Positions 5,497 to 59,870 of a stretch of 64,000 nt of DNA are shown here, piece by piece. Source of the stretch: Microcystis wesenbergii NRERC-220 (GTDB lineage Bacteria > Cyanobacteriota > Cyanobacteriia > Cyanobacteriales > Microcystaceae). The position numbers and the translations under genes are program-made. The notes below the pieces were generated by a model, which worked only from the letters and a program-made list of their open reading frames with translations, did no database searches and was not told the DNA's origin. The stretch lies in NCBI RefSeq assembly GCF_032027425.1, contig NZ_JAVSJA010000001.1, positions 4,166,001 through 4,230,000 on the forward strand, written 5' to 3'. Positions within the stretch are counted from its first letter, which is position 1, and every line of letters starts with the position of its first letter.

Positions 5497-6689
5497 CTAA
5501 GCTTCCACTAAACGAAAAGCCGCACCCAAACCGACAGCGATCTCATCGGGAGAAATTTTCCCATCATGGTTAATATCGATCGCATCGAATACCGCATCGG
5601 TTCCCGCCCATTCTTCCCGGGTGATGAAACCATCGCCATCATGGTCATAGACTCGGAAAATATCTTCGGCGGCGTGTTCTAGGGTTGACTGACCTTCCAA
5701 CTGGGTTAAACGTTGAATCAGCAATTGTTCTAATAATTCTAAAGCTTTGGTAAAACCTTGAATACCTTCCGTTAATTTTTCGGAAGCCATGGCATCTTCG
5801 GCGTGCATTTTCTCAAAAGTCGCTTGATCCAGGTCAATTTTGACAATATCAAGGGTTGCGGCCTGGTCTGGATCGAGCTTACGGGGTAAATCGGCTTCTG
5901 TCCCTTGCAATTGTTCGAGAAGTTTCGGGGAAATGGTTAAAAGATCACAACCGGCTAACTCGCAAATTTCACCGATATTGCGGAAACTTGCCCCCATAAC
6001 TTCGGTTTTATAACCAAACTTTTTATAGTAGTTATATATCTGGGTAACGGATTGGACTCCAGGATCTTCAGCGCCAACGTAGTCTTTACCAGTTTCTTTT
6101 TTATACCAATCGAGAATGCGACCGACAAAGGGAGAAATTAAGGTTACTCCCGCCTCCGCACAGGCGATCGCCTGATGAAAACCGAATAATAGGGTTAAAT
6201 TACAGTGAATTCCCTCTTTTTCGAGGACTTCTGCGGCTTTAATCCCTTCCCAAGTCGAGGCAATTTTAATTAAGACTCTTTCTCTAGAGATACCCGCTCT
6301 CTAGAGATACCCGCTTGTTCATACTGGGAAATGAGATAACGGGCCTTGTCGATGGTAGCTTGGGTATCGTAGGAAAGACGAGCATCTACTTCGGTCGAGA
6401 CGCGGCCGGGGACGATTTGCAGGATTTGTAGACCAAAACCGATGGCCAGGCGATCGAAAGCTAATTTGGCCACATCTTCCGGGGTGGCCTGCTTTCCCAA
6501 TTCTTTTCTGGCCGCTTGCAGGGTTTGATCGACAATCGGCTGATATTGGGGCATTTGGGCCGCGGCCGTAATCAGGGAGGGGTTAGTGGTGGTATCTTGG
6601 GGGGTAAAAGCTTCGATCGCTTGGATATCGCCGGTATCGGCAACAACCACTGTAAATTCCCGTAATTGTTCTAGTAGGGTTTTAGCCAT
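5497..6689 (-). pseudogene. tal: transaldolase with C-terminal EF-hands, frameshifted by a 17-bp tandem duplication
   Basis: Transaldolase moves a dihydroxyacetone unit between sugar phosphates in the pentose phosphate pathway. The first frame (6689 down to 6270) has the transaldolase signature TTTNPSLI but stops after 139 residues. The rest continues in another frame down to 5497 and ends in two EF-hand loops, [12 protein letters not shown] and [12 protein letters not shown]. At 6281-6297 and 6298-6314 the same 17 bases occur twice in tandem. Deleting one copy gives an open frame of 391 codons plus stop, reading [14 protein letters not shown] with the catalytic lysine codon at 6265-6267. As written the first product ends just before that lysine and should be inactive. 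The cause may be a real mutation, a reversible slippage state or an assembly error. Confidence 0.9.
6281..6314. repeat. exact 17-bp tandem duplication inside tal
   Basis: Two adjacent identical 17-base copies (6281-6297 and 6298-6314, each TCTCTAGAGATACCCGC). Seventeen is not a multiple of three, so the duplication shifts the tal frame. Confidence 0.97.
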
Positions 6690-10902: not shown

Positions 10903-13722
10903 TTAAGTATTAATTGAATTTAAAAGTAATTTTAGATCATCATCTTCATTTTCAGGCTTTAAATATAATGCACAAATTCGCTCAACATCATCGGCTAAAA
11001 CTTTATTTTTTTGACACCAATCTTGAAGGCAAATATCACTTAAATTTTCAATAAAATCATGGTCAACATTAGCGGCTGGCGTACTTTCTTCACAGGCAAT
11101 TTTATCTAAAATTTTAACAATATCAGGTTCAGCTAATTGTTTAGTAATAGGATTATAAAAAATGCCGTGATAATTTTGCTTATGTAAAACTAATAGATAA
11201 AGTAAGGGATGTTTTTCTGAATATATTTTAGCACTAATTAAATCATCAGATAAGGTTTCTGCATAATCACGATTAAGTTGAAGTTTTGCTGTATGTTGAT
11301 AATAAGGAGAAATGTCTAAATCTGCTAAAGCATTAAGATTGATTTCCCCAGATTCAATCGTCACTTGAGATGCCATTTCAGAAATATTAATTTCTTGAGT
11401 TTCCGCAATAGTTAAAACAGGTAAATCAATTACTTTTTTTGATTCTTGATGACGAGACATTAAATTTTTCCATCGTTTTTGAATTTCCACTAAATCATAA
11501 TTTAGTGCAGTGTTACTATTCTTTGCGCTTAGTGTTGGCACAAAAGTATAAATGTGAACGATGCGAGGTAAATGCCAGAAACGTAAAATTCTTCCCGCTC
11601 TTTGAACTGGTGCGATCGGAGTCCAATCAATATCATAATTAATAACTACTGAAGCATCTTGCATATTGACACCAACACCATGGGCATCAGTCGAAATAAA
11701 AATATCATAATTTTCGGCAAATTTCTCGGTTGTTTTATTGGAATGAGGAGCAAATTGTTTAATTAACTGTTCAATCTCTCTACTATCCTTCATCTCATAT
11801 TTTTTTTCATCTTCGCTTTGCTCGATAGTATATGCAATTTTTAAAGAGGGAAAATTACTTATAAAGTACCGAGAAAGATAAGCAACTGTAGCCCTTCTTT
11901 CACAAAAAATAATTACCTTTTGCTGTTTTTCTAATACCTGCTCTTTGATAAGGGCAGACAAAATTTTAACTTTTAGATCAAGGTTCTGATTAAGGTTCTG
12001 ATTGATTCGTTTCAGTTCAGCAATAATAGGTCTTAAAAATTTTTCTCTATCTTCACGAGAAAACATAAATTCAAGTTTCTCAAACTGATAGCTATTCTCC
12101 CCACCTGGAGTATCAGCAATACTTTCTAAAACTCCTTGAAGTGAGAGGGGCGAACTTGCCCATGCAATTTTAACTGAACGATTAAATAAATCTTTAAACA
12201 TGATATTTTTAGATTTAAGGTTAAAGTAACCTTTGACTATTGCTTCAGTCAATTCATCTTGAAGAATAAGAGAAAAATTAATGCTATGAAGAATTATATT
12301 TGGCACATAACGTCTTTCTTCACCAAAATTAATATAGGTTTCTAATCCTTCCTTTTGACCATAATATTTAGCAACGTGAGGAGTTGTTAATTGACTAGCT
12401 ACAGAAAGATTAATAAATTCATCTATATCGTTGATACACCAAGCATTAATATCTTTTTTTTCTTCTGTAAATAAATGATCCTGTTCTGGACACTTTTCCA
12501 AGAAAAAGTCAAATTCTTGAGGTTTACTTTCGCAAGTGTGAGGAAGTAGATAAAGTTGATTATTGATATTTTCAATATCTTTAGCATAAGGTGAACCAGT
12601 TAAAAGTAAAACTTTAAGATTACCCTTTTTTACTAATTCTCTAAGTTTGATAAAAGCTAATCTTTCTTTTGGTTTTTTAGTCATATTAAATAAATCTTGT
12701 TTAAATCGATTTCTAAATTCTTGACTTTCATCAATAATTAATAACCAACGCTGATTTTTAATATCTTCTAAAATATCTTCAAATAATTCCAAGGCATGAT
12801 CTTGTTTAGCATCTTTTCTATCAAAAGTTTGCCGCACAAAATAATCACAGGGTAATCCCGCTTCTCGCATTTCTTTTTGCCAATTGCTGCGGACGGCTTT
12901 AGGTCCAATAACCATGATATTATCAATTAAATCTTCATCTCGTAAATGAAGAGCTACATGAACCGCTACAACAGTTTTGCCTAGTCCAGTTGAAGCAACC
13001 AGCATTGAGCCATCAAAGTTTTTGATCTGTCGTAAAGTTTGGGCAATCATGTCAATTTGGTAGGAAAGTGGCTTTTTAGAATATCTAGTTTTGGGAGGCT
13101 GGATATTTTCTAAAACCAACATAGTTTTGAGATAAATGTCCCAAGGTGCAGCAAACTGTAACCATTTTAGTAAAATTTCTAATAGTTCTTGAGTTAAATC
13201 TTTAGCCTCAGCAAAATAATCATCAAATTCTTTAACTAATGCAAGAACCTCTGTTTTATCAGTGATAATATTACCACCTTCAACTTGTTCTCTTAATCCT
13301 TTACCAGTTAAATTTGACGAAGTTTGAATTGCCGCTTTTTCATCACAGATGTAAAGTTTATTATGATGATCTTTGGCTCTGGCATCTACAATTCCAAACT
13401 GATTTGATTGTATTTTTTCTATAATATCAAGAACTGATTTTCTTCTATCTCTGTCTAATCCTATACGCACATCTCTCATTATTTCTTGAATTAATGCCAT
13501 CCTTGCCCTTTGCTCTCCTGGATCATCTAAACCTACCAAAATATAGGTTTGTTTTCCTGTAGTATAACCCCGAACTAAATTCCAACCTTTAATCGTAAAA
13601 AAGCCTGTGGCAATGCGAATTTTTTGATTAGCTTCTTCTAAGTATTTGGTAATATATTCTATTGATTTACCTGATTCAAACCAGCTTAATCTGTTGTTAT
13701 TTAAAGATTTTAATTCTTTCAT
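10903..13722 (-). CDS. PLD-domain superfamily 2 helicase, probable defence protein
   Basis: This large 939-residue protein joins two parts. The N-terminal ~190 residues form a phospholipase D-like domain with the motif HNKLYICDEK (H120, K122, D127) and NLTGKGL downstream. A helicase follows: Walker A STGLGKT at 244-250, DESQ at 331-334, the helicase C domain with VIIFCERRATVAYLSRYF, and motif VI QRAGRILR. Such PLD plus SNF2-like proteins occur in restriction-like and phage-defence loci. Its codon use is A+T-rich compared with leuS and pnp, suggesting transfer. It is a single gene between direct repeats, next to hicBA. Only one HKD half is seen, so dimerisation would be needed for nuclease activity. 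Antiviral function is an inference. Confidence 0.8.
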   Translation of the reverse strand: MKELKSLNNNRLSWFESGKSIEYITKYLEEANQKIRIATGFFTIKGWNLVRGYTTGKQTYILVGLDDPGEQRARMALIQEIMRDVRIGLDRDRRKSVLDIIEKIQSNQFGIVDARAKDHHNKLYICDEKAAIQTSSNLTGKGLREQVEGGNIITDKTEVLALVKEFDDYFAEAKDLTQELLEILLKWLQFAAPWDIYLKTMLVLENIQPPKTRYSKKPLSYQIDMIAQTLRQIKNFDGSMLVASTGLGKTVVAVHVALHLRDEDLIDNIMVIGPKAVRSNWQKEMREAGLPCDYFVRQTFDRKDAKQDHALELFEDILEDIKNQRWLLIIDESQEFRNRFKQDLFNMTKKPKERLAFIKLRELVKKGNLKVLLLTGSPYAKDIENINNQLYLLPHTCESKPQEFDFFLEKCPEQDHLFTEEKKDINAWCINDIDEFINLSVASQLTTPHVAKYYGQKEGLETYINFGEERRYVPNIILHSINFSLILQDELTEAIVKGYFNLKSKNIMFKDLFNRSVKIAWASSPLSLQGVLESIADTPGGENSYQFEKLEFMFSREDREKFLRPIIAELKRINQNLNQNLDLKVKILSALIKEQVLEKQQKVIIFCERRATVAYLSRYFISNFPSLKIAYTIEQSEDEKKYEMKDSREIEQLIKQFAPHSNKTTEKFAENYDIFISTDAHGVGVNMQDASVVINYDIDWTPIAPVQRAGRILRFWHLPRIVHIYTFVPTLSAKNSNTALNYDLVEIQKRWKNLMSRHQESKKVIDLPVLTIAETQEINISEMASQVTIESGEINLNALADLDISPYYQHTAKLQLNRDYAETLSDDLISAKIYSEKHPLLYLLVLHKQNYHGIFYNPITKQLAEPDIVKILDKIACEESTPAANVDHDFIENLSDICLQDWCQKNKVLADDVERICALYLKPENEDDDLKLLLNSINT

Positions 13723-19812: not shown

Positions 19813-19858
19813 CTTCAGTGATCAGTGATCAGTGATCGGTGGTGAGTTTTCAGTTATT

Positions 19859-20465
19859 AGGGGTCGAGAAGGTCGTTGCCGACCTCCCCTCCCATTCAGA
19901 ACCGTGCCTGAGACTTTCACCTCCCACGGCTCCTAGTTTGACTGTTCCATTTTTAGGGATACAGCTTGTCTTAGCCTCTTGGAATATCCTCTTTTGGAGC
20001 TTAAAAACGTATCCTTGAACTTTCGCCCAATTGAGAGCTTTCCATAAAGCTCTGCTGCCACTCTCGGAAAATCCCTGTCAACTCATAAGTGCTGAAACTC
20101 TTATTTCATCGGCGAGTGCTCACTTGGTTTCTAACAACAACTCGGAAATTTAGTTTCTATTAGTTATTGTCCGCCGGAAAGCTTGCCCAGAAAGAAAGCT
20201 AGGGTTTAGAGGTAATCAGGACTTTCCCAGAGTCCCGAAAGAGCGATAGCTATGGGGGTGTCTGACCATTAACTATACCCTTCCCTGCGGTCGATCAACC
20301 TCCTCTATCCTACTATCCCACCCCCATCGGTCCAACACCCCCTCAATAAAACCCAATACCGCACTGTGCGGTCTAATCACTATCGGTGCAGCAGCTAGGA
20401 GCCACATTAGGGAACGCACCCTACAGCGATGGCGTACTGCTACGCAGTGCCTTCGGCATCGCACT
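19859..20465 (-). mobile_element. group II intron remnant lacking the reverse transcriptase gene
   Basis: On the minus strand a 34-nt segment at 19932-19899 reads GAGCCGTGGGAGGTGAAAGT, then TCTCAGGCACGGTTC. This fits intron domain V: an AGC catalytic triad position, a GAAA tetraloop and pairing outer arms. A short domain VI-like hairpin (GAGGTCG, GCAA, CGACCTTC) follows toward 19859. Upstream minus-strand sequence to about 20465 has structured, intron-like blocks but no maturase frame. The 3' end falls in a heptamer repeat tract. The 5' boundary is uncertain; candidate GTGCG starts exist near 20464 and 20417. Confidence 0.65.
19899..19932 (-). ncRNA. group II intron domain V
   Basis: A 34-base hairpin with GAGCCGTG pairing to CACGGTTC, an inner stem GGGAGGT/AGTCTCA with loose pairing, and the GAAA loop. 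Size and key positions are those of domain V. Confidence 0.75.
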
Positions 20466-21229: not shown

Positions 21230-23413
21230 CTAAATAAGAACTACGTCAAGAGAAACCGCAAAACCAGCTGGAAGGTTTGCTATCTTGGCAAACTCGGTCC
21301 CTAAAAATGAAAGTGATCCAGTCCCTGCGTTGTAACTGATCTGACTCAGAGAAGTGGCTCCAAAACCCGATTTGCTAACTTCAATTTTGTCTCCTTCTGG
21401 CCATAAAAAGTCTTGGATAGTATCAACTTTCTCGGAGAGGAAATTGAAGCGGAACTTATCGGCACCAGCACCACCAGTCAGGGTGTCATTGCCAGCACCA
21501 CCAATCAGGATGTCATTGCCAGCGCCGCCAATCAGGGTATCATTGCCAGCACCGCCATCGAGGGTGTCATTCCCCGCTCCGCCATTGAGGGAATTGTTGG
21601 TGCTGTTGCCCGTGATCGTGTCGGCAAAGCCGCTGCCGATGACGTTTTCAAACTGGCTCACCGTGAAGGTCAAGGGCAGCGGCGCGGCCGTGCCGTTCAC
21701 CTTCACCACGCCGGTGGTGAGGTTGGTAACCGTTCCCGTGGCGGGAGCCACGCTGGCACCGCTGTGATCCACCGTGTCGCCCAGCAGGCTGCTGCCCACA
21801 ATCGATTCCACGGCAATCAAGGTGTCGGTACCCAGCGCTCCCTTGTTCAACACCCCGAAGGCACCCAAAGTGACGACATTGCTCAGAGCGCTGTAGTTGG
21901 CCGTATCGACGCCAGCACCACCATTAATCGTGTCGTTGCCAGCGGTGCCGAAGAACGTGTTGGCCGAGGCGTTGCCCGTGAGGATGTTGTTTTTGCTATT
22001 GCCAGTAGCGTTGATATTGCTACTCCCCGTCAGGGTCAAGTTCTCAATCCCATATCCTTGGTTACCCGGTGTCCCCGGTGCTAGAGAATAAGTGACTGAG
22101 GCAGATACCGTATCAGCTGTCCCACCCAGGGAATCATCGAAGACCTCCTTGACGATATCGCCCACATTGTCCACGAAGTAGGTGTCGTTGCCATCACCAC
22201 CATCCATAGTGTCGGCACCCACACCACCATTGAGGACATTGCTGCCGCTGTTGCCCGTGAGGATGTTGTTTTTGCTATTGCCAGTAGCGTTGATATTGCT
22301 ACTCCCCGTCAGGGTCAAGTTCTCAATCCCATATCCTTGGTTACCCGGTGTCCCCGGTGCTAGAGAATAAGTGACTGAGGCAGATACCGTATCAGCTGTC
22401 CCACCCAGGGAATCATCGAAGACCTCCTTGACGATATCGCCCACATTGTCCACGAAGTAGGTGTCGTTGCCATCACCACCATCCATAGTGTCGGCACCCA
22501 CACCACCATTGAGGACATTGCTGCCAGTGTTGCCCTTGAGGACGTTGTTTTTGCTATTGCCAGTAGCGTTGATATTGCCACTCCCCGTCAGGGTCAAGTT
22601 CTCAATCCCATATCCTTGGTTCCCAGGTGTCCCCGGTGCTAGAGAATAAGTGACTGAGGCAGATACCGTATCAGCTGTCCCACCCAGGGAATCATCGAAG
22701 ACCTCCTTGACGATATCGCCCACATTGTCCACGAAGTAGGTGTCGTTGCCATCACCACCATCCATAGTGTCGGCACCCACACCACCATTGAGGACATTGC
22801 TGCCGCTGTTGCCCGTGAGGATGTTGTTTTTGCTATTGCCAGTAGCGTTGATATTGCTACTCCCCGTCAGGGTCAAGTTCTCAATCCCATATCCTTGGTT
22901 ACCCGGTGTCCCCGGTGCTAGAGAATAAGTGACTGAGGCAGATACCGTATCAGCTGTCCCACCCAGGGAATCATCGAAGACCTCCTTGACGATATCGCCC
23001 ACATTGTCCACGAAGTAGGTGTCGTTGCCATCACCACCATCCATAGTGTCGGCACCCACACCACCATTGAGGACATTGCTGCCGCTGTTGCCCTTGAGGA
23101 TGTTGTTTTTACCATTGCCAGTAGCGTTGATATTGCCAAACCCCGTCAGGGTCAAGTTCTCAATCCCATATCCTTGGTTATAAAATGTCCCCGGTGCTAG
23201 AGAATAAGTGACTGAGGCAAATACCGTATCAGCCGTCCCACCCAGGGCATCGTCGTAGAATTCCTTGACGATATCGCCCACATTGTCCACGAAGTAGGTG
23301 TCGTTGCCATCACCACCATCCATAGTGTCGGCACCCAAGAGACCATCGAGGGTGTCGTCGCCAGAGGTACCAAACAGTATGTCGTTGGCATTAGTTCCTG
23401 TAATTATGGCCAT
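21230..23413 (-). CDS. RTX-type calcium-binding repeat protein
   Basis: A secreted-type protein of 727 residues with no N-terminal signal peptide, as expected for type I secretion, which reads a C-terminal signal. After an N-terminal TNANDILFGTSGDDTLDG motif come five copies of a 93-residue unit (GADTMDGGDGNDTYFVDN..., DNA 23335-21941). A short non-repeat region follows, then about five nonapeptides of the GGAGNDTLxG type that bind Ca2+ in a beta-roll. It ends with ADKFRFNFLSEKVDTIQDF, typical of type I secretion targets. The ATG at 23413 is chosen because AAGGAGGG lies just upstream; an in-frame upstream start lacks this. No enzyme domain is seen. A surface-layer, adhesion or structural role is possible but not shown. 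Confidence 0.88.
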   Translation of the reverse strand: MAIITGTNANDILFGTSGDDTLDGLLGADTMDGGDGNDTYFVDNVGDIVKEFYDDALGGTADTVFASVTYSLAPGTFYNQGYGIENLTLTGFGNINATGNGKNNILKGNSGSNVLNGGVGADTMDGGDGNDTYFVDNVGDIVKEVFDDSLGGTADTVSASVTYSLAPGTPGNQGYGIENLTLTGSSNINATGNSKNNILTGNSGSNVLNGGVGADTMDGGDGNDTYFVDNVGDIVKEVFDDSLGGTADTVSASVTYSLAPGTPGNQGYGIENLTLTGSGNINATGNSKNNVLKGNTGSNVLNGGVGADTMDGGDGNDTYFVDNVGDIVKEVFDDSLGGTADTVSASVTYSLAPGTPGNQGYGIENLTLTGSSNINATGNSKNNILTGNSGSNVLNGGVGADTMDGGDGNDTYFVDNVGDIVKEVFDDSLGGTADTVSASVTYSLAPGTPGNQGYGIENLTLTGSSNINATGNSKNNILTGNASANTFFGTAGNDTINGGAGVDTANYSALSNVVTLGAFGVLNKGALGTDTLIAVESIVGSSLLGDTVDHSGASVAPATGTVTNLTTGVVKVNGTAAPLPLTFTVSQFENVIGSGFADTITGNSTNNSLNGGAGNDTLDGGAGNDTLIGGAGNDILIGGAGNDTLTGGAGADKFRFNFLSEKVDTIQDFLWPEGDKIEVSKSGFGATSLSQISYNAGTGSLSFLGTEFAKIANLPAGFAVSLDVVLI
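21941..23335 (-). repeat. five tandem 279-bp units in the RTX gene
   Basis: Units of exactly 279 bp (93 codons). The three middle copies appear almost identical at DNA level, including synonymous positions, whereas the first and last diverge. This indicates recent duplication or gene conversion inside the gene. Confidence 0.92.
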
Positions 23414-23621
23414 AAATTTAACCCTCCTTAACAATTACATAATTTACACCCTGTGCAACTGTATTTTTAGTCTTGATTTCCAAGGCTTTCAGAAATCGGC
23501 ACAGGTAATTGTTGCTATCGTACAGCCAAACGTCTAGAATGGTCATTAATTTTTGTGCATGGTCGGGTCTTCTAACCGAAGGCATTGACGAAAAGCACAT
23601 TGTATCTGTCCTAGAGGCACT

Positions 23622-26613: not shown

Positions 26614-26674
26614 CTGATAACTGATAACTGATAACTGATAACTGATAACTGATAACTGATAACTGATAACTGAT
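26614..26674. repeat. CTGATAA heptamer tandem repeat abutting ctaD
   Basis: Eight full copies of CTGATAA plus five bases, running right up to the ctaD stop codon at 26674-26676. It lies inside the ctaDE operon, in the 150-base ctaD-ctaE gap. Confidence 0.92.
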
Positions 26675-36594: not shown

Positions 36595-37023
36595 TCTCTC
36601 AAATCCTTATATGGCAACGTTTTTAGTCGATTTCTCGGAAATACATATCTGAAAATTTTTCAAAACGTCGCGCTTTGTAGGTTGATTCATGAATCAACCT
36701 ACTATGAGTTGATTCATGAATCAACCTACTATGAGAGCAAAAACCTGTACTTCCCTGCTCCCTAGCCTACCTCATAAGCGATTAAGGGTAGCAAAAAAAA
36801 GAATTAGATTCGGAGAATGAATCAGCCCTAGGGCAAGGGGGGGAATATTCAGCTAATCTAAGGATAGGCGGTTAAAATGCGTCTTAGCTTACTCTAAAAA
36901 AATAGATAGCTAAATGGGAGGAATTATTGCCGAAATAGGCATGGAAAGAGCCAATATTTCAGACAATTTACCTACAGTGAAGATTTTTGCCGTTAGACTA
37001 GGCTAAGAAACCCTACTGGAAAT
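36595..37023. other. spacer with palindromic tandem repeat
   Basis: About 430 bases with no gene. It contains the 27-bp palindromic duplication at 36682-36735; the sequence up to the reductase start appears non-coding and presumably includes its promoter. Confidence 0.5.
36677..36735. repeat. 26-bp perfect palindrome with 27-bp tandem copy
   Basis: GTAGGTTGATTCA and TGAATCAACCTAC form a perfect palindrome at 36677-36702. A 27-base unit starting TTGATTCATGAATCAACC occurs twice in tandem (36682-36708 and 36709-36735). Confidence 0.95.

Positions 37024-59746: not shown

Positions 59747-59870
<124 letters not shown>

Follow-up and report, generated by a model that had tools for sequence, protein, structure and literature searches.

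In Microcystis wesenbergii NRERC-220 the transaldolase gene, tal, occupies positions 5497 to 6689 (minus strand) of the window, i.e., the whole stretch of 64,000 nucleotides that was analysed, and it is split between two reading frames. The N-terminal piece (6270..6689, minus strand) has 139 codons, covers positions 1-107 of the TAL_FSA profile and ends with a TAA stop at 6270-6272. The C-terminal piece (5497..6300, minus strand) lies in another frame, which is open for 267 codons from 6300 to 5500, and it covers TAL_FSA positions 105-283, including the LIKIAS segment, followed by EF hands; no further stop is present in either piece. Within tal, on the same strand, there are two exact and adjacent copies of a 17-bp unit that reads TCTCTAGAGATACCCGC in plus-strand letters: copy 1, in plus-strand order, is located at 6281..6297 and copy 2 at 6298..6314, a site at which the relatives have a single copy. 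The periodic match continues for one base past copy 2, to 6315, and this is the only identity of the array beyond the two copies. With equal base frequencies, an exact adjacent duplication of this period is expected approximately 3e-6 times per 64 kb, and therefore it is not a product of chance. Across the genome (4.68 Mb), exact matches to TCTCTAGAGATACCCGC number two in forward orientation and none in reverse, i.e., the tandem pair alone.

Since 17 is not a multiple of three, ribosomes that pass the repeat would be in the wrong frame and would stop at 6270-6272. The codon of the LIKIAS lysine, which we take to be the equivalent of Lys132 of E. coli TalB, is at 6265-6267 in the second frame, 13 bases from the repeat edge; given that it lies past the stop of the first frame, this catalytic residue and the N-terminal strands of the barrel are not in one product. 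Translation would end after 139 codons, just before the codon of the catalytic lysine, and the remaining barrel would be left with no standard start codon upstream of the lysine. An internal start for the C-terminal piece was considered and rejected, since no ATG, GTG or TTG is found in frame from 6300 to 5998. When 17 bp are subtracted from 6689..5497, the remainder amounts to 392 codons including the stop, in accordance with the 391-codon genes of the relatives. These results agree with the preliminary description of this DNA, which had reported an exact 17-bp tandem duplication, a frame from 6689 that stops at 139 codons with both copies and an open frame of 391 codons with one; its statement that the duplication lies next to the codon of the catalytic lysine is a fair one.

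From its sequence, the gene is classified as a TalAB-type transaldolase with C-terminal EF hands. Both pieces match NF008965 (PRK12309), a transaldolase model that falls within TIGR00874 (talAB) and Pfam TAL_FSA (PF00923); the N-terminal piece aligns with positions 1-135 and the C-terminal piece with positions 126-391, of 392. This gene differs from the family in that it is divided by a frame-shifting duplication, and neither piece by itself reaches the cut-off of 550 bits (231.1 and 514.2 bits), whereas the intact gene of M. wesenbergii FACHB-1317 (L036) reaches 745.5 bits. Likewise, the pieces score 176.2 and 323 bits for talAB, with a cut-off of 396.2, so no single open frame spans the domain above the cut-off of the model. 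The solved structures closest to the intact protein, taken as the best of 53 sequences, are transaldolases, TalB included. A second transaldolase in the genome was also contemplated, and an intact tal elsewhere had been named at the outset as a result that would reduce the physiological weight of the break; this candidate was rejected, since the TAL_FSA profile search of the genome matched the two pieces alone.

The comparison with relatives points to a split peculiar to this strain. Of the best 80 among 171 matches to the N-terminal piece, eight are named Microcystis records, with which it shares 98% identity, and none of the remaining 72 exceeds 80%. The alignment to strains of the genus that had been proposed beforehand was carried out, and tal is open in each of the 11 other Microcystis genomes, including G059 of the same species; every one has a single match to the whole family, in an uninterrupted frame that measures 397 codons between stops. 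The single copy was read directly at the site in 10 of these 11 genomes. In a survey of the repeat site that took in 42 of at least 112 loci, a single copy and 391 codons were found in 18 of 18 Microcystis loci, comprising 10 genus genomes and eight named loci, two sets that may be the same genomes. At a wider scale, a TAL_FSA match above the cut-off is present in 195 of the 196 genomes sampled from the order at a completeness of at least 98%, the present one included, a figure that counts matches and not open frames; from this it follows that an intact tal is the ancestral state. No TAL_FSA match was obtained in the one other genome of the sample (G057). A separate observation concerns another genome of the same order (G188), whose best transaldolase match, one of three, has a value of 1.0e-60 and is as weak as that of the split gene (4.8e-63); the tal of this genome might be another broken or unusual one.

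There is no sign of decay in either piece of tal, and both still resemble a gene under selection. When the pieces were compared apart (123 and 261 codons, with a few codons around the repeat left out) against ten distinct sequences from relatives, pN/pS values of 0.07-0.15 were obtained, and the median among the relatives themselves is 0.094 (45 pairs); of the 19 loci considered for this comparison, 17 were located by their start motif and the other two were left out of the count. Values like those of the relatives, together with the identity of the two repeat copies, indicate that the break is recent. The locus shows the features of a recent pseudogene, namely orthologues that remain intact in close relatives, a single disabling change and the absence of further decay.

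The reading that we favour, and that we hold to be probable, is that the single transaldolase gene of NRERC-220 is present as a null allele, of recent and strain-level origin, caused by the 17-bp tandem duplication. The 17 bp would have been duplicated in tandem by replication slippage or a similar event, and the duplication very probably switches tal off, the loss of transaldolase activity being deduced from the broken frame. The mutation appears real and, unless it is a sequencing artefact, is ordinary in kind, recent and specific to the strain. The preliminary description is upheld in so far as it saw a broken gene with loss of function (there are two frames, and no second tal was found), a very recent event and a difference at the strain level; its suggestion of a switch by slippage that would act on the oxidative pentose phosphate pathway did not find support. 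On the other hand, that tal is so widespread in the order points to a need for it in wild strains, and this fits poorly with a fixed null unless the mutation was born in culture.

The alternative that best survives is an assembly artefact, in which contig or read ends overlapping by 17 bp were placed side by side without being merged, so that the true state would be one copy and an intact gene. We consider it unlikely, but it would account for the open tal of the relatives with a single copy wherever the site was read, for the lack of decay in the pieces and for the unexpected finding of a null in a gene that is so widely conserved. However, the site is unique sequence, which gives an assembler no particular cause to break, the genome is contained in two contigs and rated 100% complete, and no second broken gene was detected among the comparable ones. 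For this last test, frames of at least 120 codons were compared at an identity and a coverage of at least 85% each; 16 frames of G059, six of G002, three of G008 and five of G005 could be compared with the window, and tal was the sole broken one each time. In the reverse direction, none of 17, 7, 4 and 6 window frames, respectively, was broken. It follows that frameshifts do not abound in the assembly of this region, and a generally poor assembly was rejected as an explanation, bearing in mind that the test is small, i.e., 30 of the relatives' 187 frames were used and the rest were dropped, mostly as synteny in these stretches soon breaks.

A different proposal, made in the preliminary description, is that of a reversible slippage switch, in which the copy number in the population would go back and forth between one and two, with transaldolase on in the former state and off in the latter. 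It has in its favour that exact tandem copies can be removed in one step and that a hairpin can be formed in the two-copy state only. The 17-bp unit begins with a perfect palindrome, TCTCTAGAGA, and its two occurrences (6281-6290 and 6298-6307, spanning 6281..6307) are complementary to each other, so that a stem of 10 bp closed by a loop of 7 nt is possible. The predicted single-stranded DNA fold of the two-copy site is of -7.5 and -8.1 kcal/mol on the two strands; shuffled controls average -2.7 and -3.7 kcal/mol, with 0 and 2 of 200 shuffles folding as well, and the one-copy site of L036 gives -1.3 kcal/mol on the gene strand. Palindromes and hairpins are reported to promote deletion between repeats, and according to this prediction the hairpin may favour the loss of one copy; since the identity beyond the copies is of one base only, it provides no explanation for the origin of the duplication. 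The allele should be able to drop one copy again, but copy loss is possible for any short tandem duplication and it is therefore no evidence for a switch. Moreover, no two-copy allele was seen in the relatives, of which only one belongs to the same species, and the forward step should be rare, given that the one-copy state has 1 bp of flanking identity. No variation in copy number was found among related strains, i.e., there is one copy in all ten genus members that were read, and the gene of G059 is open over its full length. Phase-variable tracts usually consist of many short units; tal resembles these simple-sequence repeats in that the frame is set by how many copies of a tandem unit are present, and differs from them in having two copies of a long unit, relatives with one and no sign of alternation. 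The switch is, for these reasons, very improbable. Its link to the oxidative branch was likewise unsupported, since transaldolase belongs to the non-oxidative pentose phosphate branch, and the oxidative genes zwf and gnd are open in this genome. A stronger version, in which tal is a contingency allele whose duplicated-state hairpin speeds its own excision, so that this bloom-forming cyanobacterium loses and regains transaldolase at a useful rate, seems to us highly speculative and hardly to be credited.

We give scarcely any credence to the weakest alternative, namely that the pieces are still functional, either because they associate or because ribosomes shift by -1 within the overlap and make an enzyme of full length, with six additional residues before LIKIAS: the two frames do share 28 nt (6273-6300) and the insert precedes the conserved LIKIAS segment, at a place that might accommodate additional residues, but the second frame has no ATG, GTG or TTG before the lysine, and programmed frameshifting was rejected since no slippery heptamer of the type X XXY YYZ is found in 6270-6320.

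If the null allele is accepted, its effect on metabolism has to be considered. Besides zwf and gnd, the genome has open genes for transketolase, for a GlpX-type phosphatase, which in cyanobacteria is an FBPase/SBPase, for two members of the class II aldolase family and for phosphoketolase (one strong match). The null would be tolerated by means of the aldolase, FBPase/SBPase and phosphoketolase routes. According to PMC7125299, repression of talB in a Synechocystis library does not lead to a low fitness score, and a transposon library of Synechococcus PCC 7942 shows transaldolase to be non-essential; two model cyanobacteria thus withstand a reduced or disrupted tal. From these libraries and the open genes of alternative sugar-phosphate routes, it is likely that a tal null is viable in the light.

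The allele resembles the small indels that separate cyanobacterial substrains, in that an indel in a coding region distinguishes lineages of one species and can be used as a marker; it departs from them in the 17-bp unit, present in two copies instead of one, and in affecting a gene of central metabolism. Among the literature matches listed, no title reports a broken tal in Microcystis, and nothing in those on complete genomes of M. wesenbergii, on duplication and reversion, on Synechocystis substrains or on palindromes and deletion deals with the tal repeat site; the accessible part of PMC9839332 contains no occurrence of transaldolase. If the duplication is real, the strain is a transaldolase null of natural origin in an order where nearly all sampled genomes (195 of 196, its own included) match the family, and this could be used to ask what role transaldolase plays in a cyanobacterium; otherwise, it serves as a strain marker and as a caution for annotation.

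Exact tandem arrays with units of at least 12 bp were also collected from 464 kb of the genome, i.e., the window and 20 further stretches that represent 8.6% of the chromosome. There are 38 such arrays, some of them overlapping, and 21 do not overlap any open frame of 100 codons; the tal array was verified as breaking a conserved gene, and tal was the only in-frame array that this check took in. A perfect palindrome of at least 10 bp is present in only two array units, that of tal and a 27-bp unit at 36681, and therefore the idea that tandem duplications of this genome contain palindromes as a rule was rejected. The window has 64 perfect 10-bp palindromes, a number close to that expected by chance (64000/1024).

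Several other repeats and features were noticed in the window. The 27-bp unit forms an exact tandem duplication at 36681-36735, outside open frames of 100 codons, and opens with an 18-bp perfect palindrome, GTTGATTCATGAATCAAC. Tandem 16-bp units that contain GTTGATTCA recur in other sampled stretches of the genome. A 279-bp unit is repeated 4.9 times, with 97% matches, at 21971-23337, inside a minus-strand open frame (21230-23434). Many heptamer tandem tracts are found (CTGATAA, AGGAGTC and ATCAGTT, among others), which we take to be of the kind called STRR in cyanobacteria; those at 26614-26674 and 59747-59866 lie between open frames, and another (19815-19837) overlaps the end of a match to an Rfam group II intron (19828-19934, minus strand, 48.8 bits). 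Finally, positions 10903-13722 encode a protein of 939 codons that contains PLD-like and helicase domains, for which the top PADLOC match is the HKD+Snf2 model, followed by the BrxHI and DrmD models; this gene has two exact in-frame copies of 12 bp at 11980-12003.
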